NCBI GenBank assembly: GCA_017472965.1
Contig: JAFUNR010000040.1
Span: 1-46,225, forward strand
Direction: 5' to 3'
Length of the DNA stretch: 46,225 nucleotides
Source of the DNA: Oscillospiraceae bacterium
GTDB taxonomy: Bacteria; Bacillota; Clostridia; Oscillospirales; Ruminococcaceae
The notes beneath the pieces were generated by a model, which was given only the letters and a program-made list of their open reading frames with translations, did not search any database and was not told the origin of the DNA. Made by a program: the position numbers and the translations under genes. How positions within the stretch are numbered: position 1 is the stretch's first letter; every line of letters starts with the position of its first letter. Positions 31,892-44,741 of the stretch are shown here, piece after piece.

Positions 31892-33187
31892 ATGACTGCT
31901 GCCGATAAACTGCGTGCCCGCATCCAGCCGATGAAGGAGGCGCTTGCCCCCTGCCCCGGTCTGTGGGAGCTTTTTGAACGCTGCTATCTGAACACCATCG
32001 AGACCACCGTACAGCAGACCCCCGGCGATACCTTTGTCATCACCGGCGATATTGCCGCCATGTGGCTGCGGGATTCCACCGCGCAGGTGCTGCATTATCT
32101 GCGCTTTGCCGCCGAACCGGAGGTTTCCGCCATGCTGGAGGGTCTGATCGCGCGGCAGGCCGCCTGCATCCTGCGCGACCCTTACGCCAACGCCTTCAAC
32201 CGTGAGCCGTCTGATTACAAGCCTTACAACGACACGCCCCGTGCAAGCGACTGGGTATGGGAGCGCAAATATGAGATCGATTCCCTGTGCTATCCGCTGT
32301 GGCTGGCCGAAAAGTACCACGCCCGCACCGGCAGCACCACTTTTCTGACCAAAGATTTCCACGCCGCCCTTCGCTGCGTGGTGGAGCTGCTGCGGCTGGA
32401 GCAGGATCACAGCCGTTCGCCCTACCGGTTTGAGCGCACCGACTGCCCGCCCGGCGATACGCTGGTGCGGGAAGGACGCGGCTCACCGGTGGCTGTCACA
32501 GGCATGACATGGAGCGGCTTCCGCCCCAGCGACGATGCCTGCCGGTACGGCTATCTGGTCCCCTCCAATCTGTTCGCCGCCCGCGCCATGCGCTCGGCCT
32601 GCGTGCTGGCCGGCCTTTTGAATGATCCGACACTTGCCGCCGAGGCTGAAGCGCTGGGCGAGGAGATCGCCGCGGCAGTGCGCAAGCACGGCACCGTGGA
32701 GCATCCGGAGCACGGCACGATCCTTGCGTATGAAGTGGACGGCCTTGGCAATGCCAACCTGATGGATGACGCCAATGTACCCAGTCTGCTGGCACTGCCC
32801 TATCTGGAGGTGTGCGCACCGGAGGATGCACTTTACCAGAACACCCGCCGCTTTGTGCTGAGCAAAGAGAACCCCTATTATTACACCGGTCAGCTTGCCG
32901 CAGGCGTGGGCAGCCCCCACACCCCGGGGGGCTATATCTGGCCTATCGCCTTGTGTGTGCAGGCCATGACCAGCATCGATCTGGACGAGATCGCCGCCTG
33001 TCTTCACACGCTGCTGCACACCCACGGCGGCACCGGCTTTATGCACGAAAGCTTTGATCCCAATGCACCGGAGAAATTCACCCGCAGCTGGTTCGCTTGG
33101 GCGAATTCCATGTTCGGAGAGCTGGTTTGTCTGCTGTACGAGACCGACTGGCTGGGCGAGGTTCTGGACCGGATGAAAAAGCTTTGA
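31892..33187 (+). CDS. Exo-alpha-1,6-mannosidase, GH125
   Basis: A 431-aa cytoplasmic inverting, metal-independent enzyme removing terminal alpha-1,6-mannose, as from N-glycan cores. Family marks: TGDIAAMWLRDS (51-62), GMTWSGFRPSDD (204-215, with the acid Asp at 214 or 215), NLMDDANVPSLLALPYL (289-305) and GFMHESFDP (382-390) with base E386; then FTRSWFAWANSMFGEL. Length is typical. The stop is only 10 bases from the stop of the convergent GH38, with no clear terminator between. GH125 with GH38 is a usual pairing for alpha-mannan or N-glycan use. Confidence 0.95.
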   Translation: MTAADKLRARIQPMKEALAPCPGLWELFERCYLNTIETTVQQTPGDTFVITGDIAAMWLRDSTAQVLHYLRFAAEPEVSAMLEGLIARQAACILRDPYANAFNREPSDYKPYNDTPRASDWVWERKYEIDSLCYPLWLAEKYHARTGSTTFLTKDFHAALRCVVELLRLEQDHSRSPYRFERTDCPPGDTLVREGRGSPVAVTGMTWSGFRPSDDACRYGYLVPSNLFAARAMRSACVLAGLLNDPTLAAEAEALGEEIAAAVRKHGTVEHPEHGTILAYEVDGLGNANLMDDANVPSLLALPYLEVCAPEDALYQNTRRFVLSKENPYYYTGQLAAGVGSPHTPGGYIWPIALCVQAMTSIDLDEIAACLHTLLHTHGGTGFMHESFDPNAPEKFTRSWFAWANSMFGELVCLLYETDWLGEVLDRMKKL

Positions 33188-33197
33188 GCCCGGCCGG

Positions 33198-36100
33198 TTA
33201 TCTTATCCGCACAGTCTTGATCTCGAATGCATGGAAATCCAGTGTCACGGTATCGTTTTCCACCGGAATCTCCTCTATTACATTTTCCAGCATATCGCAG
33301 ATATACGCTCTTTTGTTCTTCAGCAAAGCACTCTTTACCACCGCACGCACCGGTGCTTTCTTCGCTTCGTAAAAGCGCAGGATCAGATCGCCGCCTGCAT
33401 CCTCCGCAGGTTTCAGCGTATCCAGAAGGATGTTTTCTCTGTCGATGCAAAGCGCACTGAAGGTTTCCAGACTGCCCTCCGTCATTGCAGGCGGCACATT
33501 GAGCGCATACGCCGCCTTTACCGCCTGCGATCCCGCAAAGCATCCGTCCCAGCCGCTGAAGGCGTAGGTGAAGGTATTGATGCCGTTGTCGGCACGGAGC
33601 TGCGGCTGTATCGCTGCGCGAAGAAGCGTCAATGACAAAGTGGATCCGTTCATGCTGATGCCGTATTTGCAATCATTCATAAGCGCCACGCCGTGTGCGC
33701 CGTCATTCAGTGCACTGTAGCGATGGTTGCAGACCTCGAATCGGTCGGCATCGTGTTTTCGGGATTTATGTGTCGGCCGCTCGATATAACCGAACTGGAT
33801 TTCATTGATGGCGTTTTCCGCATGGACAGTGGAATCGAAATCCACCTTCAGCAGCCTGTGCAGTTCTCTCCAGTCGAATTCCGTTTCAAAACGCAGAACA
33901 TCGCTGCCGGCATTCAGACGGATATACTGTGTATAGGCAGAGCTGCTGATGGTGCCGGTCACCTTCAGAACACCTTCAAGACCCTCGGCGATCTTTGTCA
34001 CGGTGATGTTTTCCGCGCCGCCGCATTCAGTTTCAGCATAATGCGAATCGATATCCCATGCATCGCTGTCCCGGGGTACATCTTTATACAGCCGGAACCG
34101 GTTCAGCACCGTACCGACAAATTCCCGTCCGCTGTCTTTTCTTACATAACCGGTCACTTCGCCGCGTGAATTGATCTTCACCCGGATCTGCTCATTTTCC
34201 AGACAGAACGCACCGTTTTCCCCGCACCGGACCCTTACCGGATGATATTCCGCCGATTTTTCAGCGGGATACAGAGAAACCGCTCCGCAGGAGGGCAGCG
34301 TCACAAGCGCCCTGCAGCCCTCCGCCGTCTTTTGGACCGGCAGCAGCGTTCCCTCTGCCGTTCTGGCGCCGTTTTCAAAACGCGCCGGCAAAAGCACCTG
34401 CTCGGTTCGCTCAAAGCTCAGAGAGTTAAAAACAGTGACCGCCCCGCCGCCGGTACCGGCGGTCAGCACCTGACGGGCATCCCGGGCCGCCGCAGTGGCC
34501 TCTGTGATCACCGCTCCCACCGCTTGATGCGTTTCGTCGTTGACCCGTTCGATGGAAGAACCCGGCAGAATATCGTGGAACTGGTGCAAAAGAAGCTCTT
34601 TCCAAAGCCGCTGATTTGCCTGTGCATCAAACCGGTATCCGTTCTTTTGTGCCAGCGCACCCCAGAATTCCATTTCGCGCAAAGCAAACTCGGCCAGACG
34701 GTTGTTTTTCTTCACCAGCGCCTGCGTGGTAAAGGTTCCGCGGTGTGCGCAGAAATACAGCTCACCCACATAGGTGTTTTCCGGACCGCCCAGCTCGTCC
34801 AGATGGCGGAACATTGCCTTAGGCGACTCGAGCACTGTGGGAACGATGCCCTGAAGATTTTTCTCCCGGAGCGTATACTCCACATGATCGCGGGTCGCTC
34901 CGCCGCCGCCGTCGCCGTAGCCGAAGGGAAGCATAAAGGAATCCGTATCCGGCTGTGCCGTGGCATCCCAGATCTCATTGATGCGGTTCGGAAACGGTGT
35001 TTCATAGGTTACAAAATAGCTTGCCACCTGTGAGCCATCGATCCCCTGCCAGTTAAAATAACGGTACGGGAACGGATCCCAATCATTGTATGTCCACAAA
35101 ATTTTCTGCGTTGCAAAGTATTTTGCACCGCATTTTTTCATGATTTGCGGAAGCGCCGCCGTGTAACCGAAGGTATCCGGCAGCAGAACGATCTCGCTGT
35201 CCACGCCGAATTCCTCTTTGAAATAGCGTTTTCCGTAAAGGAACTGCCGGATCAGTGCTTCACCACCCGCCAGATTCAGATCCGGCTCTACCCAAAGCGC
35301 ACCTTCCGCAAGCCACTGTCCTTTGGCTGCCATTTCTTTGATCTGATCAAACAGATCCGGATAATACCTGCGGCACATTTCATAGGAAGCCGGCTGGGTC
35401 ATCAGATATTTATACTCCGGATACTGCTCCATCAGGCGAACCTGCGCCGCAAAGGTGCGGGCTGTTTTTCTGTGCGTTTCCTCCAGCGGCCAGAGCCACG
35501 CCAGATCCAGATGTGATTGACCGAACGCATAGCATTTCGGCATGATATCGCCGTTTTTGGCCTCGAAAACCGGGCGCAGCTCCTCCCGCGCCTTCCGATA
35601 ACTGGCACTGCGCAGCTCCTGCGGCTGCTCAAAATCTACCGTTTGGGTAAACTGCTTCAGCGCCTTGCCGATCTGCATGGCGCGAAGGGAGTTTTCCGGC
35701 AGATAACCATAAAGCCGGTCCAGCGTATCCACATCCATAAACAGCTGGTACGCATCCTCATGGAAAACACCGTATGTGGACCGGCCAAGTGTCACACGCG
35801 CACCTTCCGCCAGCGTATCCCGGATCGCAGCTTCATCCAGAACCGGACCGGTTTTTCCGGGAATAAAATGTCCGGCATAGGTCTCCATCAGCACTTCGAA
35901 GGTTTCGCCGCCGGCAGCGCAGGCCGTCAGAAGATTATCCTCGTAGTATTCCCATGGCTGCACCGGCGGCCAGTCCGCTTTTTTCCGATATGCGCCGTAT
36001 GTTTTTCCGTTTATGAACAGCGTGGATTCACCGTTCGGCACAAGATCCATCACGATGCGTTTGCCCGCCGCTTCTTCCGGCAGCACGATCGTGGCCTTGA

Positions 36101-36308
36101 ACCAGCAGTATTCCCAGGATTTTCCCCAGGTAAAGCCCTCGGAAACAGGCTCAAATTTCTGATGGATCACCTCGGTATGCCGTAAATGATCCATAGTGCG
36201 AAATGCTTCCCAGCTGATCTCGCCCAAGGGCTGATAAAAATCATCGGTCAGCGTGCGCTTCCAATGTTCCAGACGGCCGCGCCATTCCGGATGCAGTAAT
36301 GTACTCAA
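33198..36308 (-). CDS. Alpha-mannosidase, GH38 (first copy)
   Basis: A 1036-aa zinc-dependent retaining alpha-mannosidase without signal peptide. An N-terminal beta domain (about 1-250) precedes the catalytic barrel: zinc ligands H266 and D268 in GQSHLDLAWLWPLEET, nucleophile D378 in LLPDTFGYTAALPQI, and HQFHDILPGSS with a further zinc His. The C-terminal beta domains end in FEIKTVRIR. The start is TTG 36308, six to eight bases after AAGGGGGA. It is the last gene of the operon starting at 40072 and lies 58 bases after the epimerase gene. It is paralogous to, but clearly diverged from, the GH38 at 41544. Confidence 0.95.
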   Translation of the reverse strand: MSTLLHPEWRGRLEHWKRTLTDDFYQPLGEISWEAFRTMDHLRHTEVIHQKFEPVSEGFTWGKSWEYCWFKATIVLPEEAAGKRIVMDLVPNGESTLFINGKTYGAYRKKADWPPVQPWEYYEDNLLTACAAGGETFEVLMETYAGHFIPGKTGPVLDEAAIRDTLAEGARVTLGRSTYGVFHEDAYQLFMDVDTLDRLYGYLPENSLRAMQIGKALKQFTQTVDFEQPQELRSASYRKAREELRPVFEAKNGDIMPKCYAFGQSHLDLAWLWPLEETHRKTARTFAAQVRLMEQYPEYKYLMTQPASYEMCRRYYPDLFDQIKEMAAKGQWLAEGALWVEPDLNLAGGEALIRQFLYGKRYFKEEFGVDSEIVLLPDTFGYTAALPQIMKKCGAKYFATQKILWTYNDWDPFPYRYFNWQGIDGSQVASYFVTYETPFPNRINEIWDATAQPDTDSFMLPFGYGDGGGGATRDHVEYTLREKNLQGIVPTVLESPKAMFRHLDELGGPENTYVGELYFCAHRGTFTTQALVKKNNRLAEFALREMEFWGALAQKNGYRFDAQANQRLWKELLLHQFHDILPGSSIERVNDETHQAVGAVITEATAAARDARQVLTAGTGGGAVTVFNSLSFERTEQVLLPARFENGARTAEGTLLPVQKTAEGCRALVTLPSCGAVSLYPAEKSAEYHPVRVRCGENGAFCLENEQIRVKINSRGEVTGYVRKDSGREFVGTVLNRFRLYKDVPRDSDAWDIDSHYAETECGGAENITVTKIAEGLEGVLKVTGTISSSAYTQYIRLNAGSDVLRFETEFDWRELHRLLKVDFDSTVHAENAINEIQFGYIERPTHKSRKHDADRFEVCNHRYSALNDGAHGVALMNDCKYGISMNGSTLSLTLLRAAIQPQLRADNGINTFTYAFSGWDGCFAGSQAVKAAYALNVPPAMTEGSLETFSALCIDRENILLDTLKPAEDAGGDLILRFYEAKKAPVRAVVKSALLKNKRAYICDMLENVIEEIPVENDTVTLDFHAFEIKTVRIR

Positions 36309-36366: not shown

Positions 36367-37212
36367 TCACTGCACGCTCACAGTGACGTCAAAACGGAAT
36401 TCCCCGCCGGCGGCAAGGCTCCGGATACGGAATTTTTCGCAGAGCTCACCGCTTGCATTCCACGGATCGTCGATGCCGAACCACGGCTCGATGCACACAT
36501 AAGGCGCACCGGGCTTCGCCCAGATACCGAGGCAGGGCGCACCGCCGAAATCCACATGGACATTGCGGCCGTTTGCCCGCACAAGAGTCGCCCCGCGGGA
36601 GCGCAGACCGTCAAACAGCAATGCATCCTGTGCAAAGATATCCTGTGTGATGACGATTTCGCGGCTTGCATCAAACACCGGCCGACGGCTTTCGCCGAGC
36701 AGATGGTCATCATCCAGAATCAGCGAATCGGCGGTTTCCGGCTCGTCCATCACCACGCGGTCACCCATTTCGCACTGAAAGCCGGGGTGTGCGCCCAGCG
36801 AGAAATACATGGTCTTTTCTCCGGTATTCTTTACGCTGTGAGCCATGACAAAGCCGTTTTCCGTAAAAGAATAGCTCACCCGCAGCTCAAAGGCAAAGGG
36901 GTATACCGCACGGGTGGCGGCGGTATCCCGCAGCAGCAGCGTGATGCTGTCGGCGGTACGGCTTTCCACGCCGAATTCCGCTTTTCTGGCAAAGCCGTGC
37001 TGCTCCATTGCGTATGTGCAGCCTTCAAAGGTATAGGAATCGTTCTTCAGCCGGCCCACCACCGGAAACAGCAGCGGAGAGCAGCCATTCCAGATGGGGC
37101 CGCCCTGCCACAGATACTCATATGCACCGCTGCGCTTATCCACAAAACTGCGAAGCTCGGCACCGATGGCCGACGCACCAAGGCGAAAAGTATCGTTTTC
37201 GATGTAATACAT
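36367..37212 (-). CDS. Aldose 1-epimerase family protein (LacX-like)
   Basis: A 281-aa mutarotase-family protein that interconverts anomers of aldoses or sugar phosphates. Candidate catalytic residues: H72 in EQHGFAR, H142 in GAHPGF and E242 in CIEPWFG. LacX-like members sit in sugar operons. ATG 37212 follows AAGGAG; only 12 bases separate it from the kinase gene. It should feed the right anomer of released mannose (or of the trio's substrate) to the next step; that is inference. Confidence 0.9.
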   Translation of the reverse strand: MYYIENDTFRLGASAIGAELRSFVDKRSGAYEYLWQGGPIWNGCSPLLFPVVGRLKNDSYTFEGCTYAMEQHGFARKAEFGVESRTADSITLLLRDTAATRAVYPFAFELRVSYSFTENGFVMAHSVKNTGEKTMYFSLGAHPGFQCEMGDRVVMDEPETADSLILDDDHLLGESRRPVFDASREIVITQDIFAQDALLFDGLRSRGATLVRANGRNVHVDFGGAPCLGIWAKPGAPYVCIEPWFGIDDPWNASGELCEKFRIRSLAAGGEFRFDVTVSVQ

Positions 37213-37224
37213 ACCGTTTTCTCC

Positions 37225-38256
37225 TTATCCGATATAGGCATCCCATGCCGCCAGCACCTCTTCGCGGGCGGCAGTACCGGTGGTGCCGATTTTTTTTATA
37301 GTGACCGCCGAGCAAAGACAGGCGATCTGTGCGGCCTGCAGCGGGCTTGCCCCCGCCGCCAGCAGCGTGCCGTAACCGGCAAGAAATGTATCGCCCGCAC
37401 CGCAGAAATCGATGGGCGGCTCCACCTTGCAGGCAGGGCAGAGGGTGACACTGTCCGCATCCGCCACAAAGCAGCCGTGCTCGCCCAGTGTCATCAGCGC
37501 AGTGCGGCCGCATTTTGCGGCGATTTTTTCCGCCAGAAGCGAAAGCTGCTCCAGCCCGGACACAGAGCCGTCACCGAAGGCACGGGAGGCCTCCACCTCA
37601 TTGGGCTTGAGAGTGACATTGGTATAGTCGGCGGCACGGTCACGGCTGTCCACGATGACCGTCTTGCCCGCGCCGCCCAGCTCGGAGAGCCTTGTCCGCA
37701 CGGCGGGGGTGATGCAGCCGTATTTCATCTGGTCGCTGACACAGATCACATCCACCTGCGCAGCCATGGCTTCCAGTGCGGCGAGCACACGGGCCTCCGT
37801 CTGCGAACTTACCGGCTCACGGCTTTCAAAATCCAGACGGGGATCCTCGTATACCACATCGGAGATGCCGCGTCGCAGCGGCTTGATGTAGGTGTTGGTA
37901 ACACGGTCTGCATCGCGGATGATGCAGCTGCAGTCGATACCGGCAGCTTCCAGCGCCGAAAGCAGCAGCCCGCCGCGCCAATCCTCGCCCACAAGCCCGA
38001 CTACCAGCAGCTTTGCGGGCTTCAGCGCGGCAATATTATTGGCCGCGTTGCCTGCACCGCCGGGGGCAAAGCGCTCCTCCACCACAGGCAGCGGGTAATG
38101 CGGGGTCTCGCGGGAGAGTTCGCTGAGCTTCATATCCGCCAGCCAGTACAGATCCAGACACAGATCGCCGATCAGCCCCACACGGGCGTGATCCACCTTC
38201 TGCAGCAGCTCCGCCAGCCCGGTACGGATCAGCGGTTTATCCATTGTTTTATACAT
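37225..38256 (-). CDS. PfkB family sugar kinase (HldE kinase-domain-like)
   Basis: A 343-aa ribokinase-fold kinase. GDLCLDLYW (30-38), PGGAGN (65-70), KPNE (217-220) and the catalytic GAGDT (286-290, base D289) are present. These blocks resemble the kinase domain of HldE/RfaE (heptose-7-phosphate kinase) more than fructokinase or ribokinase, but there is no nucleotidyltransferase domain and no other heptose gene is near. The ATG at 38256 lies inside the end of the preceding gene (8-base overlap), so translation is coupled to the deoxyhypusine-synthase-like protein. Substrate unknown. Confidence 0.85.
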   Translation of the reverse strand: MYKTMDKPLIRTGLAELLQKVDHARVGLIGDLCLDLYWLADMKLSELSRETPHYPLPVVEERFAPGGAGNAANNIAALKPAKLLVVGLVGEDWRGGLLLSALEAAGIDCSCIIRDADRVTNTYIKPLRRGISDVVYEDPRLDFESREPVSSQTEARVLAALEAMAAQVDVICVSDQMKYGCITPAVRTRLSELGGAGKTVIVDSRDRAADYTNVTLKPNEVEASRAFGDGSVSGLEQLSLLAEKIAAKCGRTALMTLGEHGCFVADADSVTLCPACKVEPPIDFCGAGDTFLAGYGTLLAAGASPLQAAQIACLCSAVTIKKIGTTGTAAREEVLAAWDAYIG

Positions 38257-39238
38257 CCTGTCCGCTTTCCTTTCTTTGAGCCTTCATCAGCTTTTCGTAC
38301 AGATTGGGGATGGTCTGCTGGTGGTCGCCGCAGAAATGCCAGCCCTTGCCGCCGCAGCTGACGGGACGGTTGACAATGTTTTTGCGGGGTCGGTAGTAAT
38401 ACTGTGGATTCTCATAGCCGATGCTGCTGCGGTAATCGCCCAGATCGATCAAATCAAAATTGGCAGTGGTGATATCAAAGGTTGGGTATCCCAGATTGCG
38501 TGCGATGGAAATGGCCTTGAGAAACACCTCCGGCCCGATGACACCGGAACCGAAGTTCATGTAAACGCCTTTATCCATATGGGCGACAGAGTAGCAGATC
38601 TTGTGAAAATCCGTGCCGGTGGCCTTGCCGATGGCCTCGAAATCCACAATGGGATGCTGGTGGATGATATCGGTTCCCATAGCGATGTGGTAGGTGGCGG
38701 GGATATCCAGCACATAGGCATTCCACAGCACGCAGTCCTCGCGGTAGGGAAATTTATCGGGGTTCCGGTCGATGTAGCGGCCCAGCGCTTCACCGTAGCC
38801 AAGGCCGTCCTTTGCACCCTGCTGAATCGCCTCGTTCATCCAGCGGCCGGTCTGCTCCCACATACCGAAGGAGCCATCCTCGATGGCGGTGGGCACGTGC
38901 TCGGAGGTACCCCCCAGATACGCCAGTTCAAAATCGTGGATGCTGCAGGCGCCGTTGCCGGCGATGTGGGTGATATAACCCTGCTTCATCAGCTGGATCA
39001 GATAGGGCGACAGGCCGCATTTGATGACATGCGCCCCCATGGAGAAGATGATCTGCGAGCTGTTGGCTTTGGCCTTTTTGATGCGGGCCACCAGCTCGTC
39101 AAAATCCTCGCTGCCCCAGACCGGCACCTCGTATTCACCGGGCCGCTTGAGCGTTTCGATGCGCACCAGATTGATGCGGTCGTTGGCATCGTAGGTTTTT
39201 ACGCCGGAATAATCCAGCTGCATGCTTCTGCGATTCAT
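38249..39238 (-). CDS. Deoxyhypusine-synthase-like Rossmann protein of unknown function
   Basis: A 329-aa soluble protein I cannot assign to a characterised enzyme. IIFSMGAHVIKCGLSPYL, QLMKQGYITHIAGNG and GNGACSIHDFE (94-104) recall the dinucleotide-binding domain at the C-terminus of LOR/SDH-type (TIGR00300) proteins and deoxyhypusine synthase, where a GN-A-x-HD-x-E block is conserved. Further blocks are MGTDIIHQHP (187-196) and FGSGVIGPEVF (229-239). An NAD-dependent step is a guess from the fold. It sits between a HAD phosphatase (36 bases upstream) and a PfkB kinase (overlapping), so it probably works on a sugar or sugar phosphate rather than on a protein lysine. GGGGAAG site before ATG 39238. 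Confidence 0.6.
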   Translation of the reverse strand: MNRRSMQLDYSGVKTYDANDRINLVRIETLKRPGEYEVPVWGSEDFDELVARIKKAKANSSQIIFSMGAHVIKCGLSPYLIQLMKQGYITHIAGNGACSIHDFELAYLGGTSEHVPTAIEDGSFGMWEQTGRWMNEAIQQGAKDGLGYGEALGRYIDRNPDKFPYREDCVLWNAYVLDIPATYHIAMGTDIIHQHPIVDFEAIGKATGTDFHKICYSVAHMDKGVYMNFGSGVIGPEVFLKAISIARNLGYPTFDITTANFDLIDLGDYRSSIGYENPQYYYRPRKNIVNRPVSCGGKGWHFCGDHQQTIPNLYEKLMKAQRKESGQDV

Positions 39239-39274
39239 AGCTCTTCCCCTTTTATACAGTTGTTTTTTCTTCTT

Positions 39275-40072
39275 TTACAGCCCAAGGAACGCCAGCAGCG
39301 CATCCTTTTCCAGAAAATCCCCGGCGATGATATCTGCACCGGCCCTGATCAGACGCTCCCGCTTGACAGCATCCACACCGCCCGCCCGTTCATCGGTGGC
39401 AAGACCAACGGTGCGCGCTCCCGCTTCATACCCCAGACGGATCTCCACCTTGCCGTCGCCGATGACAGCCACCTCATCGCCGTGCAGTCCCTCCGCCTGC
39501 AGCAGACGGGCCATCACCTTTTCCTTGGAGCAGTTTTCCTCGCCCACCGGCGCACCGGCGATGAGGGTGAAGTACCCGTCCAGCCCCAGTGCGGCGGCCT
39601 CGGCGCAGACATCGGGATGATCGGTCCCGCTGGCCACATACAGCTTTACGCCGTGTTCGCACAGCGCCCGGAGGAACTCCTCGCTGCCTGCGATCAGATA
39701 TTCCGTGTTGGGCGCAGTCCCGGTGGTCAGACTCTCTACCCGCTTGCTGACATTTTCCATCAGACGGCGGTTGTATTCACCCTTGTACCACCACGGGTCG
39801 GTGGGGGCATCGGGGTTATTGCCCCGCTCCTGCACCGCTGCTGCCAACCACTTCATCTGGTGGATGGTCTGGATACCGGTAGAATCACTGATGTAATCCT
39901 CCACCTCTTTTTCCAATGCCGCATCCCACGGCCTGCCGCCGGAGATCATCTCCAGCATCAAAGGTTTCATCACAGCCTCCCAGCCGCAGCGCAGCGTGGA
40001 GATGGTTCCGTCAAAATCAAACAGCACGGCACGCACAGGGGTGCGGGCTGTATTCTTGTGCAGAATCTCCAT
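39275..40072 (-). CDS. HAD superfamily phosphatase
   Basis: A 265-aa HAD hydrolase: motif I DFDGT (D19, D21), motif II in VASGTDHP, motif III Lys in CSKEKVMARLL, motif IV GDGKVEI. The helical cap between motifs I and II is of the C1 type and Trp-rich (DPWWYKGEYNRRLME). The substrate is probably a sugar phosphate, by context. It is the first gene of the five-gene mannosidase operon, behind a good promoter whose -10 is covered by a candidate ROK operator. AGAGGA precedes ATG 40072. Confidence 0.88.
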   Translation of the reverse strand: MEILHKNTARTPVRAVLFDFDGTISTLRCGWEAVMKPLMLEMISGGRPWDAALEKEVEDYISDSTGIQTIHQMKWLAAAVQERGNNPDAPTDPWWYKGEYNRRLMENVSKRVESLTTGTAPNTEYLIAGSEEFLRALCEHGVKLYVASGTDHPDVCAEAAALGLDGYFTLIAGAPVGEENCSKEKVMARLLQAEGLHGDEVAVIGDGKVEIRLGYEAGARTVGLATDERAGGVDAVKRERLIRAGADIIAGDFLEKDALLAFLGL

Positions 40073-40099
40073 CGTTCTTCCTCTCGTTTTCCAAAAATA

Positions 40100-40122
40100 T
40101 TTTGTTAATTTATTTAATTATA
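40100..40122. promoter_or_regulatory. Candidate ROK operator at the five-gene operon promoter
   Basis: TTTTGTTAA (40100-40108), 5-base spacer, TTAATTATA (40114-40122). The GTTAA-N5-TTAA core matches the palindrome at 41488-41518. Its right half covers the -10 (40117-40122), so binding would block transcription. Confidence 0.6.
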
Positions 40123-40146
40123 TGCCCGCGCCGCAGGTTCTGTCAA
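40117..40146 (-). promoter_or_regulatory. Promoter of the HAD-DHS-like-PfkB-epimerase-GH38 operon
   Basis: Minus strand -35 TTGACA (40141-40146), 18-base spacer, -10 TATAAT (40117-40122). Confidence 0.8.
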
Positions 40147-40177
40147 TCTCTCTGCCATAAAAAATTCAGGCATACCT

Positions 40178-40205
40178 TTGAAAACACCGCGGAATGTGAT
40201 AATAT
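40178..40205 (+). promoter_or_regulatory. Promoter of the ROK regulator gene
   Basis: -35 TTGAAA (40178-40183), 16-base spacer, -10 TAATAT (40200-40205); 31 bases before the ATG. It is moderate in quality. Confidence 0.5.
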
Positions 40206-40236
40206 TATACCATCACGAAAAAGGAATGTGAAGCTT

Positions 40237-41382
40237 ATGACCCATGCCACCAATGCCGCAGTGATGCGCACCTCCAACCGCAAGCTGATACTGGACCTGA
40301 TCCGCCGGGGGCCGATCTCCCGCGCGGAGCTTGCCGAACGCACACAGCTGACCAGAGCATCCATCACGCAGATCGCCGATGAGCTGCTGGAGGCCGGCCT
40401 TGTGGAGCCCTGCTCCACCGACTGCAATCCGGATGCAGGCACAGCCCCCGGCCGCCGGCGCACCATGCTTGCACTGAAACACAATGCACGGTTCTTTTTC
40501 GGGGTACACATCAGCCGCCGGCGCTGCCGCGTGGGTGTGGTGGATCTGTACGGCGATGTGCTGACCGACGACGAGCTGCTGCTTGACGGTCATACCCCCG
40601 AAAGCACCGCCGATGCGGTTGCCGGGATCATCCGCAGCCAGATGGCACAGCTGCCCTACCCAAAGGAACAGTTTCTGGGCATCGGCATCAGCGCACCCGG
40701 CCCGGTGGATCACCGCGAGGGGATCATTCTCAACCCGCCCAACTTTGATGCGTGGCACAACACCCCCATCTGTGCCATGCTGTGCGAACGCACCGGTCTG
40801 CCCGCGCTGCTTGAAAAGGACACCAACGCCCGTGCGCTGGAGGAAAAATATTTCGGCGCAGCCATGAACATTTCCGGTTTTATGCTGGTACAGATCGATG
40901 AAGGTGTAGGCTCCGGCGTGATGATCCGCGATAGCCTGTACCGCGGCACACGGGGGCTTGGCACCGAGATCGGCCACACCACCATCCGCTATGACGGCCC
41001 GCCCTGCCGCTGCGGCGGCCGCGGATGTCTGGAAAACTATCTGCGCATTCCGGCACTGCTGGCCGGCAGCCGCTTTGCCGATTGGGCACAGCTGACCGGC
41101 TGCGCTAACGAGCCGGATGCAGCCCGGATCCTGGACTGTGCTGCCGAATATCTGGCCGCGGCGCTTGTCAACGCTTTCAACCTGTACGATCTGGAGCAGG
41201 TGTTTCTCTCCGGCGAGGTCGCAGCCTGTCCGCAGCCGCTGCTGGACCGGCTGACACCGCTGGTCAGCGCCCGCGTGCTGAGCCGCAGCAGCAGAACGCC
41301 GGTATCCGCCTGCAGCGGCCGGCTGCCGGTACGCACCGGAGCCATGGCAGTGCTTTATGATTTTTTCCAGCCGCGGGAATAA
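40237..41382 (+). CDS. ROK family transcriptional repressor (NagC/XylR-like)
   Basis: A 381-aa regulator: a winged HTH (about 14-55: RKLILDLIRRGPISRAELAERTQLTRASITQIADELLEAGLV) joined to a sugar-kinase-fold ROK domain. The zinc motif is C257-x-C259-x4-C264 in CRCGGRGCLE, with H247 in EIGHTTI; a sugar would bind near KDTNA (194-198) and EIGH. ROK repressors release DNA on binding a sugar or sugar phosphate. It sits between two mannosidase units, each carrying a matching palindrome at its promoter. ATG 40237 has AAGGA eleven bases upstream; a GTG three codons earlier is possible. Confidence 0.93.
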   Translation: MTHATNAAVMRTSNRKLILDLIRRGPISRAELAERTQLTRASITQIADELLEAGLVEPCSTDCNPDAGTAPGRRRTMLALKHNARFFFGVHISRRRCRVGVVDLYGDVLTDDELLLDGHTPESTADAVAGIIRSQMAQLPYPKEQFLGIGISAPGPVDHREGIILNPPNFDAWHNTPICAMLCERTGLPALLEKDTNARALEEKYFGAAMNISGFMLVQIDEGVGSGVMIRDSLYRGTRGLGTEIGHTTIRYDGPPCRCGGRGCLENYLRIPALLAGSRFADWAQLTGCANEPDAARILDCAAEYLAAALVNAFNLYDLEQVFLSGEVAACPQPLLDRLTPLVSARVLSRSSRTPVSACSGRLPVRTGAMAVLYDFFQPRE

Positions 41383-41458
41383 AGCCCCGCCAGTACGTTT
41401 TCGGCACTATTGCTAAAATTTTCTTCTGTTTTTTTACGCAGCAGAGCCTGACCCGCCG

Positions 41459-41487
41459 TTGACAGCGTACAGAAATTTGGTTAAAAT
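41459..41487 (+). promoter_or_regulatory. Promoter of the second GH38 gene
   Basis: -35 TTGACA (41459-41464), 17-base spacer, -10 TAAAAT (41482-41487), directly followed by the palindrome at 41488. Confidence 0.75.
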
Positions 41488-41518
41488 TTGTTTTAGTTAA
41501 ATCAATTAACAAAAACAA
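41488..41518. promoter_or_regulatory. ROK-type operator (31-bp palindrome) before the second GH38 gene
   Basis: Arms TTGTTTTAGTTAA (41488-41500) and TTAACAAAAACAA (41506-41518), 12 of 13 positions complementary, spacer of 5. A/T-rich long palindromes of this kind are bound by XylR-like ROK repressors. Its place just past the -10 is that of a repressor roadblock. Confidence 0.75.
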
Positions 41519-41543: not shown

Positions 41544-44500
41544 ATGCACTATACCAGCCGCATCATTCTTGATAACAAGCTTTCCATGCTGAAAAGCATG
41601 ATCTATCAGGATATTCATCCCATTGATCGTTGGGAGACCCGCGAGCTTCTGTACCCCGAAGCGCTGCGGTTTGAACCGGTGGATGACTGGCATCCCATCG
41701 CCGTGGGCAGCCACTGGTTTTCGCAGTTTGATCACACCCAGCTGTTCCGCGCGGTGGTCACCATACCAGAAAGCTTTGCCGGCAGACAGCCGCTGCTGGT
41801 GCTGGATCTGGGCGGTGAGGGTCAGATCCGCATTGACGGTGAGATCGTATCGGGGATTGTTTCTTATGAAAACAAGCGCGACGGTCTGGGACTTTTCCGC
41901 CAGAACCGCTCCCGCGTGGTCGTACCCGCCAGATACGGCCCCGGCGACAGCTTTACGGTGGAGGCGGAGTGCTGTCTGAACTTCCTTGACACCGGCTACA
42001 ATCTGACGGACAAGCAGAACTCCCCTGTGGTGGAGTACACGCTGAACACCGCTTTCCTTGCCGTGGCCGATGAGGAACTGGAGGGCTACACCTTTGATCT
42101 TGCCACGGTGATGGAGGCCATTGACTGCTTCGCAAATCCCCTGGCCACTTTTGAAAGCTCCAACGCACGTGTGCTGAACGGCACGGTGCATCAGATGATG
42201 AAGGCGCTGAATGCCGACAGCTACCTGCAGGAGAAGCTGTTCGCCGCCGCCATGGCCTCGGTGAACGAGCTGCTGCTGGAATGCGGCTATGAGGAGCTGA
42301 AGGCCAGCCTGCCCGCTGCCGCCGCCGCACTGAAGGAAGGCCTTGCGGCCATTCCCCACAAGGCTCATGCCATGGTCAAATTTGTAGGACACTCCCATAT
42401 CGATACCGCGTGGCTGTGGCCGCTGAAGGAAAGCGTACGCAAATGCGGCAAGACCTTTTCCAATGTGCTGGATCTGATGGACCGGTATCCGGAATTCATC
42501 TTCGCCTGCAGCCAACCGCAGCTGTTCGCCTATACCGAAGAATTTTATCCCGAGCTGTTCGAGAAGATCAAGCAGCGTGTGGCCGAGGGCCGTATCGAAC
42601 TGGTGGGCAATGCATGGGTGGAGATGGACACCAATGTACCCGGCGGCGAGGCTCTGGTACGCCAGCTGCTGTACGGACGCCAGTACTATCTGGAAAAATT
42701 CGGCAGGGCATCCAGAGTTTTCTGGATGCCGGATGTATTCGGCTACAGCTGGGCCCTGCCGCAGATCATGAAGCGCAGCGGCGTGGAGTATTTCTTCACC
42801 TCCAAGCTGGGCAACAACGACACCAACAACTTTCCGCACTCGCTGTTCCACTGGCAGGGTGTGGACGGAACGAAGATCCTTTCCTTTCTGCAGCCGCTGG
42901 GCTATAACGGCGAAACCGGACCCGGCCACATCTCCGAGGCATACTATTATCAGAAACAGAAGGATGTATATCCTGTTTCGCTGGCGCCGGTTGGCTACGG
43001 CGACGGCGGCGGCGGCCCCAACTACCAGATGCTGGAAACCGCACGCCGATCCAAAGAACTGCCCGGTCTGCCCCGCGCCGAATTCGCCACCGCGGAATCC
43101 TTCTTCCGCGAGGCAGAGGCCGTGCAGGATCAGCTGCCGGTGTGGAACGACGAGATGTACTATGAATTTCATCGCGGCACCTATTCCAGCCAGTCCGAGA
43201 CCAAAAAGAATAACCGTAAGGGCGAGCTGCTGCTGCGCCGCACCGAAATGGCCTGCGCCATGGCTGCTGCCCTGACCGGCTGCGATTACCCAGCCCGTGC
43301 CATCGGCAAGCTTTGGAAAGCTGTACTGACCAATCAGTTCCACGATATCCTACCCGGCTCCTCCATCCATCAGGTATATGAGGACTGTGATGTCATCTAC
43401 GCCCGTACCTTTGCGCAGGCAAACGCTCTGTTTGATGAGGCCATCACCGCACTGAATACCCATATCGGCGTAGGAGACGATCAGCTGGCTGTGTGGAATT
43501 TCCTTGGCTGGCCGGTGACCGGCACGGTTTGTGCCGCGCTGACCGGCAGCTTTGCCGCACTGACCGATGAGGACGGCAGGGCGGTCAACGCCGTTGTCAC
43601 CGCAGGTGAAACCGGTACGGAATTCCTTTTTGAAGCGCAGAATATCCCCGCCATGGGTGTGAAGGTATTCACCGCAGTCGGCAAGGCCGCCGAAGCCGCC
43701 GCGGCGCTGCCTGTGCTGGAAAACGCCCATCTGCGTGTCACGCTGGACGAAAACGGCAATATTATCAGCCTTTACGACAAGCACGCCAACCGCGAGGCCT
43801 TTGCCGAGGGCACCCGTTCCAACCTGCTGACCGTGTTTGAGGATATCCCTCACCGCGAATCTGCGTGGAATATCGATCTGGAATACCAGAACCGCTTCTG
43901 GGAGCTGGACAAAGCTGAAAGTGTGGAGGTTGCAGAGACAAGCAGTGTGCGCAGTGTAGTGCGTGTGGTGCGTAAATTCCGCAATTCCACCATCACACAG
44001 GATATTGTGCTGGAGCGCGATGCCCGCCGTGTGGATTTCATCACCCATGTGGACTGGCAGGAAAAGCAGCGGATGCTGAAAACCACCTTCTGGCCGGATG
44101 TGCTTGCCGGCAAAGCAACGTACGAGATCCAGTTCGGCGCCATTGAGCGGCCCACCCACTGGAACACCAGCTATGATAAAGCCCGCTTTGAGGTGTGCGG
44201 CCACAAATGGGCGGATCTTTCCGAGGGCGGCTTCGGTGTCAGCATCCTGAATGACTGTAAATACGGTTACGATATCAAGGATAACCGGATGCGTCTGACA
44301 CTGCTGCGCGGCACAGTGTATCCCGATCCCACCGGCGATATCGGCGAACATGATTTCACCTACTCCATCCTGCCCCACAGCGGTGACTGGCGCTGCGGCG
44401 ACACGGTACGCCATGCCTATGCTCTGAATGTGCCTGCACTGCCCACCGCCGGCTGCGGCGAAGGCAAAGCCCGCGGTTTCAGCTTTGCGGCTGTGCCCAA

Positions 44501-44741
44501 CGCCAATGTCATTCTGGAAACCATCAAGGGCGCAGAGGACGGTGACGGTCTGATCGTCCGCGTATATGAAAGTCAGGGTGCCCGCGGCAAGGCGGTCATC
44601 GATTTCGGCTTTGCATTGAAGGATGCCGCCGAGTGCAATCTGATGGAGGTATACGAAAAAGAGCTGCCGGTGGACGGCAGCAGTCTGCACTTCTATATCA
44701 AGCCCTACGAGATCAAAACCTTCCGGGTACGCCCGGTGTAA
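41544..44741 (+). CDS. Alpha-mannosidase, GH38 (second copy)
   Basis: A 1065-aa zinc-dependent alpha-mannosidase without signal peptide. Zinc ligands H285 and D287 in VGHSHIDTAWLWPLKES, nucleophile D397 in FWMPDVFGYSWALPQI, and NQFHDILPGSSI. The canonical HSHIDTAWLWP block and the C-terminal KPYEIKTFRVRPV are as in bacterial cytosolic GH38 enzymes of high-mannose glycan use. Start at 41544, six bases after AGGAGG. It forms its own unit, behind promoter and operator, and ends in the terminator at 44773. The two GH38 proteins differ enough (for example QSHLD versus HSHID) to suggest different linkages. Confidence 0.96.
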   Translation: MHYTSRIILDNKLSMLKSMIYQDIHPIDRWETRELLYPEALRFEPVDDWHPIAVGSHWFSQFDHTQLFRAVVTIPESFAGRQPLLVLDLGGEGQIRIDGEIVSGIVSYENKRDGLGLFRQNRSRVVVPARYGPGDSFTVEAECCLNFLDTGYNLTDKQNSPVVEYTLNTAFLAVADEELEGYTFDLATVMEAIDCFANPLATFESSNARVLNGTVHQMMKALNADSYLQEKLFAAAMASVNELLLECGYEELKASLPAAAAALKEGLAAIPHKAHAMVKFVGHSHIDTAWLWPLKESVRKCGKTFSNVLDLMDRYPEFIFACSQPQLFAYTEEFYPELFEKIKQRVAEGRIELVGNAWVEMDTNVPGGEALVRQLLYGRQYYLEKFGRASRVFWMPDVFGYSWALPQIMKRSGVEYFFTSKLGNNDTNNFPHSLFHWQGVDGTKILSFLQPLGYNGETGPGHISEAYYYQKQKDVYPVSLAPVGYGDGGGGPNYQMLETARRSKELPGLPRAEFATAESFFREAEAVQDQLPVWNDEMYYEFHRGTYSSQSETKKNNRKGELLLRRTEMACAMAAALTGCDYPARAIGKLWKAVLTNQFHDILPGSSIHQVYEDCDVIYARTFAQANALFDEAITALNTHIGVGDDQLAVWNFLGWPVTGTVCAALTGSFAALTDEDGRAVNAVVTAGETGTEFLFEAQNIPAMGVKVFTAVGKAAEAAAALPVLENAHLRVTLDENGNIISLYDKHANREAFAEGTRSNLLTVFEDIPHRESAWNIDLEYQNRFWELDKAESVEVAETSSVRSVVRVVRKFRNSTITQDIVLERDARRVDFITHVDWQEKQRMLKTTFWPDVLAGKATYEIQFGAIERPTHWNTSYDKARFEVCGHKWADLSEGGFGVSILNDCKYGYDIKDNRMRLTLLRGTVYPDPTGDIGEHDFTYSILPHSGDWRCGDTVRHAYALNVPALPTAGCGEGKARGFSFAAVPNANVILETIKGAEDGDGLIVRVYESQGARGKAVIDFGFALKDAAECNLMEVYEKELPVDGSSLHFYIKPYEIKTFRVRPV

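Follow-up and report, generated by a model that had tools for sequence, protein, structure and literature searches.

The window analysed here, a 46,225-nucleotide stretch of an Oscillospiraceae genome, carries a gene for a ROK-family transcriptional regulator (40237-41382, + strand) from which two transcription units diverge. The left unit runs on the − strand from 40072 to 33198 and comprises, in order of transcription, genes for a HAD-type phosphatase (39275-40072), an uncharacterised GSU2086-family protein (38249-39238; NF052581, 396 bits against a cut-off of 250), a PfkB kinase similar to the kinase domain of HldE (37225-38256; 163 bits, below the cut-off of 345), an aldose 1-epimerase-like protein (36367-37212) and a first GH38 alpha-mannosidase-like enzyme (33198-36308). 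Since the intergenic gaps within this unit are at most 58 bases, it reads as one five-gene operon. The right unit is a second GH38 alpha-mannosidase-like gene (41544-44741, + strand); like the phosphatase, the epimerase and the first GH38 gene it was assigned by Pfam and NCBIfam models. A GH125 gene (31892-33187), on the strand opposite to the five-gene operon, is without an operator-like site. A search for solved relatives of the GSU2086-family protein gave nothing better than matches to Sll1336 and Alr4995 over about 60 residues, with E values of 0.12 or worse.

The product of 40237-41382 was identified by Pfam, its solved relatives and its zinc motif. It contains a ROK domain (PF00480, 1e-42) and an N-terminal winged helix-turn-helix (MarR_2 match, residues 17-60), and can be aligned with the solved structure Lmo0178 over residues 6-364. 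The signature GH-x(n)-CxCGxxGCxE is the ROK zinc motif, and the kinase ATP motif DxGxT is lost in ROK transcriptional regulators; in the window protein the zinc motif GHTTIRYDGPPCRCGGRGCLE occurs at residue 246, and by eye GVHISRRRCRV stands at the place of DxGxT. Among curated regulator models those for the ROK proteins Mlc and NagC of E. coli scored best, each below cut-off, and Mlc structures were also among the solved relatives. Mlc and NagC are described as regulators of other sugars (PMC4856308).

An operator-like site was found at the promoter of each unit, with the ROK gene, the likely source of the protein that binds them, between the two, as the initial annotation had it. The promoter read by eye for the second GH38 gene is TTGACA-N17-TAAAAT (41459-41487, + strand; −35 at 41459-41464, −10 at 41482-41487, spacer of 17). 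As had been described, its −10, TAAAAT, directly abuts a 31-bp operator-like palindrome, site B (TTGTTTTAGTTAAATCAATTAACAAAAACAA; 41488-41518, + strand), which begins one base past it and occupies the start region of transcription of this gene. For the five-gene operon the promoter, again by eye, is TTGACA-N18-TATAAT (40117-40146, − strand; −35 at 40146-40141, −10 at 40122-40117, spacer of 18), and its −10 is overlapped by the operator-like site A (40100-40122, − strand; core 40104-40118), the core sharing two bases with TATAAT. By a hand count, the distance to the −10 is 10 bp shorter for site A than for site B, or about one turn of the helix. The two sites are 1392 bp apart, centre to centre. 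Site A also lies 118 bases upstream of the ROK ATG in the common intergenic region, so that it might act on that gene too; no third site was found at that gene's own start.

The two sites differ in how well they stand on their own. Site B pairs at 13/15 positions, a value reached by 1/2000 dinucleotide shuffles of its intergenic region, and site A at 7/11, its promoter-side half being ATTAA and not GTTAA. When compared in inverted orientation the sites are identical at 19/21 bases (2 differences), which 0/100 shuffles of the two intergenic regions reached, and the half TTAACAAAA faces downstream in both. The earlier claim of a related site on the −10 of the divergent operon stands, with an overlap of two bases and a match of 19/21, and has to be weakened as regards symmetry. 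ROK operators are described as having a T-rich left and an A-rich right arm (PMC4856308); as an inverted repeat of this kind on a promoter, site B fits, and site A does so by similarity, its symmetry being weak. Searching the genome with the symmetric pattern TTTGTTAA-N5-TTAACAAA at ≤3 mismatches returned 17 places including both sites, against 14 for the control. As this is close to background, the case for site A comes from its match to site B and its position rather than from its own symmetry, and the operator claim as a whole from the match between the sites, their positions and the comparison with relatives. A place on contig C30 with 2 mismatches to the symmetric pattern was set aside as background, its two adjacent frames giving nothing and a sub-threshold MFS match, and scanning two frames near a 3-mismatch place on contig C1 gave nothing.

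Sites A and B are close to unique in this genome. Within the window GTTAA-N5-TTAA occurs at these two sites only (3 matches on both strands; 0.05 expected). A 21-base pattern composed from the two, TTTTGTTAATTNATTTAAYTA, matched them and nothing else at ≤3 mismatches in the 2.9-Mb genome (85% complete), and its reversed control gave 0. Since this pattern finds sites A and B only, at this tolerance no copy precedes the GH125, GH39, GH29 or GH106-like gene, in agreement with the initial annotation, whose local regulon, extending both ways over some 10 kb of target genes, is likewise borne out by the finding of just two sites. A place on contig C11 (GTTAACGGGCTTAAC, in L001), found with a 15-base pattern, was dropped because longer patterns miss it. 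Three more GH38 homologues are encoded in the same genome, two divergent ones on contig C8 (L046, 1067-6875) and one on contig C59 (L047, 5937-8306), and the N5 site is absent from both stretches at ≤5 mismatches.

To extend the comparison we collected relatives of the ROK protein from the family (396 genomes, 19 with a match at 1e-42; in an earlier run 148 genomes, 14 at 1e-30) and from the order (394 genomes, 15 at 1e-40), the own genome being included in each count. Two genomes of the genus were searched, one of them the own, and the other had no match to the ROK protein (1e-30), GH38 (1e-60) or GSU2086 (1e-30). A first pass by eye and palindrome score over the intergenic regions of eleven loci gave no match to the window site; the pattern in relatives emerged solely from systematic scans. 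These used the better arm of site B, as TTTTGTTAA-N5-TTAACAAAA, over at most 260 bp upstream of the ROK match. At ≤4 mismatches 6/33 same-family loci were hit (shuffle mean 0.41, maximum 3 in 60), and at ≤5 mismatches 14/33 (shuffle mean about 2.1, maximum 6). Of the 33 loci, three hand-made control patterns hit 0, 2 and 1 at ≤4 mismatches; at ≤5 they hit 3, 12 and 6, so that at the loose setting one control was also strong (12/33 against 14/33 for the real pattern). When 251 other letter orders of the arm were tried, 3 reached 6, all three containing TTTGTA, and none reached 14 (means 0.69 at ≤4 and 3.64 at ≤5), a control that bears out the site B arm pattern. The arm TTTTGTAAA matched 13/33 family loci at ≤4 mismatches, and palindromes sought without any pattern upstream of family ROK genes were often ATTTGTAAA-N5-TTTACAAAT, which has the length and spacer of the window site with one base changed per half-site.

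The window type of operator reappeared in two other families of the order, where ROK operons that include a GSU2086-family gene have GTTAA-N5-TTGAC and GTTAA-N5-ATAAC on their promoters. In L079 (genome G480) the site, TTTTGTTAAATGAATTGACAAAT, includes the −35 TTGACA of a ROK-GSU2086 operon, and in L081 (genome G411) the site, TTTTGTTAAATCATATAACAAAC, ends just upstream of the −35 of a kinase-ROK-HAD-GSU2086 operon. Only these two places reached ≤2 mismatches in 309 kb of related stretches, and neither was equalled in 1000 shuffles of its upstream region (0/1000 each). The ROK proteins of these two relatives are only 34 and 39% identical to that of the window. A further 2-mismatch place, in L060, is of the GTAAA type and likewise precedes a ROK gene. 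The L060 stretch has two near-perfect GTAAA-N5-TTTAC-type palindromes (2630 and 2673, 10/11 pairs each) before one ROK gene. Such recurrence, together with the 19/21 identity that 0/100 shuffles reached, makes it extremely improbable that the likeness of sites A and B is an accident of two promoter regions, although both regions are AT-rich and the symmetric pattern at 3 mismatches stays near its background of 14.

Conservation upstream of relatives' genes had been named beforehand as a test of the operator proposal, and the L079 and L081 promoters answer it positively, with several other relatives lacking a site. L004/L038 has a partial site, placed on the −35 in L038, which we left uncounted because 282/1000 shuffles do equally well, and in L067/L080 half a site is seen by eye that 717/1000 shuffles equal. 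No full site was found upstream in L064 or L065, and none assignable to the ROK gene in L082, L083 or L024; away from that gene, L082 (5696) and L024 (16451) have one 4-mismatch place each. L024, where the ROK gene sits beside a GH38 gene, and L064 are nearest to the window ROK in the tree. In L041 and L042, which combine a ROK gene, two GH38 genes and the same module, neither operator type precedes the ROK gene, and L042 has before its GSU2086 gene a look-alike only, at 5 mismatches. All of the 11 GSU2086 stretches in which no ROK homologue was detected lacked a site at ≤3 mismatches (11/11; three of them are short, 3.9 to 6.2 kb, and a ROK gene could lie outside). In L039 the sequence AAGTTTATTAAC occurs as a direct repeat (9740 and 9855) between divergent ROK and GSU2086 genes.

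These data also bear on whether the palindromes belong to some global regulator instead. The main candidate is Rex, a redox repressor whose Clostridiaceae motif is given as TTGTTAANNNNTTAACAA (PMC9600882) and whose half-site, TTGTTAA/TTAACAA, is nearly identical to ours. The spacer of Rex sites is N4, against N5 in the window sites and the related ROK operators, so a Rex-type operator TTGTTAA-N4-TTAACAA does not describe them. The N4 pattern at ≤2 mismatches found six places in the genome, the same number as its reversed control and including neither window site. Moreover, the N5 site reappears beside ROK-linked modules, and the 11 GSU2086 stretches in which no ROK homologue was detected lack it at ≤3 mismatches. 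We therefore hold control by Rex or another global regulator to be highly improbable, and return to the ROK protein as the likely binder.

The type of operator goes with the recognition helix of the ROK protein. This helix is LTRASIT in the window protein, LSRAAVT in L066/L079 and L071/L081, and LTRAAVT in L004/L038, while most ROK proteins that go with a GTAAA site have K-M-T, K-M-A or K-M-S; relatives with a K-M helix carry GTAAA-N5-TTTAC. Calling sites at ≤4 mismatches among 54 relatives, we obtained the GTAAA type for 14/21 K-M helices (0 GTTAA, 7 without a call), the GTTAA type for 3/8 R/Q-A helices (0 GTAAA, 5 without a call), and the GTAAA type for 2/25 of the remaining helices (23 without a call). 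For L004 and L071 we scored the region before the operon's first gene in place of that before the ROK gene; the L071 site was first spotted in a wider scan, and the L066 site is of the GTTAA rather than the GTAAA type by one base (2 against 3 mismatches). Helix class and operator type are associated with a Fisher p of 0.0015 over the 17 called K-M and R/Q-A genes, a value that follows classes set after the sites had been seen and that counts kin sequences as independent, since all 14 K-M proteins with a GTAAA site belong to one clade. In the tree the clade that holds the window ROK has 13 members (support 0.925) and is separate from the one containing 20/21 of the K-M proteins, so the association is largely one evolutionary split. 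Next to the same GSU2086 gene the operator changes with the ROK neighbour: L085 and L040 (K-M) have the GTAAA type, and the window, L079 and L081 (R-A) have the GTTAA type. A rule in which the R-A-S/A helix reads GTTAA and the K-M helix GTAAA, with N5 geometry common to both, is likely on this evidence, and would make it possible to predict the sites of many regulators of this kind in related bacteria. L012, with a Q-A-T helix and without a call within the R/Q-A class, has TATACTTAA-N5-TTAAGTATA, and L005, with a K-S-A helix, has ATTAGTTCA-N5-TGAACTATT. Upstream of a ROK gene with an S-W-G helix, L045 has ATTATATCACGATGTGATATAAT (11722, 10/11 pairs), possibly a third operator class.

Because sites A and B cover two core promoters, are near-unique in the genome and recur with related ROK-GSU2086 operons, and because operator type tracks the helix, we infer that they very probably serve as operators for the ROK protein whose gene they flank, which adds weight to the proposal in the initial annotation. 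One ROK dimer would bind each palindrome through the half-site TTTTGTTAA with its N5 spacer. In the absence of inducer the protein would occupy the −10/+1 region of both promoters and block transcription both of the HAD-GSU2086-HldE-like kinase-epimerase-GH38 operon and of the second GH38 gene, which diverges from it. Its release would come from a sugar or sugar phosphate arising from the processing of mannosidic glycans, and both units would be induced together. A single signal is thus likely to switch two alpha-mannosidase genes and an uncharacterised sugar-phosphate gene set. Taken as a whole, a local and probably repressive regulon under this ROK protein, with the palindromes as its predicted operators, is in our view a highly probable reading of the locus.

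The direction of control is suggested by operator position. ROK proteins may activate or repress (PMC9599254), and the L081 site ends just upstream of the −35, a place where activators also bind. However, both window sites overlap or directly follow the −10 and the L079 site contains the −35, so binding there should exclude RNA polymerase; the window ROK is thus probably a repressor, and a role as activator, or as a protein that needs the sugar for binding, is distinctly improbable. DNA looping by a tetramer is known for NagC, and exactly two sites, one per end of the ROK gene, would suit a tetramer joining sites A and B in a loop that encloses this gene. However, each site can act alone, and L079 and L081 have just one site each at ≤3 mismatches in the stretch read, which leaves looping rather unlikely and dimers acting at separate operators as the preferred reading.

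This regulon was not described in the titles or abstract openings returned by literature searches. A two-site ROK regulon is a known type of arrangement, and the points of interest are the likely specificity rule and the unexplained module. One of the closest parallels is ManR of Thermotoga maritima, a ROK protein with a small regulon of two operons for mannan and mannoside hydrolases (PMC3750489), whose sites and mannose effector were tested earlier according to that paper, citing Kazanov et al. 2013. The likeness, a ROK protein with a small regulon that includes mannoside hydrolases, was drawn at the level of the regulon; ManR belongs to another bacterial group and also controls a transporter, and the available passages of PMC3750489 do not name a GSU2086 module. 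XylR group 1 of Clostridium acetobutylicum, also a ROK protein, recognises, with EMSA support, an inverted repeat of 25 bp (ACTTattAAAnnnnnTTTaaAAAgt) that has a 5-base spacer (PMC2873477); the spacer equals that of the window sites, whereas the half-site is different and the targets are xylose genes. The pneumococcal N-glycan locus, a GH125-GH38-ROK-GH20 operon with GH92 and GH29 (PMC7075642), shares with the window GH38, GH125 and GH29 genes accompanied by a ROK gene. There, in contrast, the operon includes the ROK gene and the locus is turned on by the two-component system TCS07, with no GSU2086 module named in the passages available; GH20 was not found among the 30 window proteins scanned, and the window has no GH38/GH125/ROK/GH20 operon of the pneumococcal type. 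In Geobacter sulfurreducens hldE-GSU2086-gmhA is described as a sugar biosynthesis operon (PMC5585712), its order being taken from locus numbers. GSU2086 adjoins an HldE-type kinase gene there as in the window, where the unit differs in having a mannosidase gene and an operator-like site.

It is the GSU2086/HldE-like kinase/HAD module, not GH38, that stays with this ROK group. A GSU2086 gene is in the same stretch as an R-A type ROK gene in L079, L081, L038 and L080 (not in L083), and none of these five stretches yielded a GH38 homologue. The L079 and L081 stretches are 18-19 kb, and one of them also has the HldE-like kinase and the HAD phosphatase. In L080 a GmhA-like gene lies between ROK and GSU2086 (136 bits, cut-off 209), and on contig C39 of the own genome, unlinked to the window, another (139 bits, below cut-off) lies behind a ROK-family gene (L138, 808-2362). 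Given these genes, and given that the Geobacter locus numbers place GSU2086 between hldE and gmhA, the module has the look of heptose-phosphate chemistry, to which the mannosidases may be an addition; contrary to the latter, L024 has its ROK gene beside GH38 and no GSU2086 match in the stretch. The GmhA-like product of L138 may provide a step that the module lacks; no operator was found there, the best place in 12 kb having 6 mismatches.

Since the module rather than GH38 stays with the ROK group, the inducer favoured in the initial annotation, mannose or a derivative, is not supported here; mannose is only a guess, possible by likeness to the Thermotoga ManR. A more specific scenario, on balance unlikely, is that ROK proteins with the R-A-S/A helix are dedicated to a heptose-phosphate-like module and GH38 was captured later. 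The pathway would then degrade sugars of manno configuration, which might include heptosides besides mannosides, with GmhA- and HldE-like enzymes acting in scavenging, and the inducer would be a pathway intermediate and not mannose. The locus offers a concrete putative two-site regulon for this ROK group. It also links alpha-mannosidases with the uncharacterised GSU2086/HldE-like genes, and so limits where the substrate of the module is to be sought.

The HAD phosphatase/GSU2086/HldE-like kinase module (37225-40072 in the window) is found across several families of the order, whether or not ROK and GH38 genes are close by.
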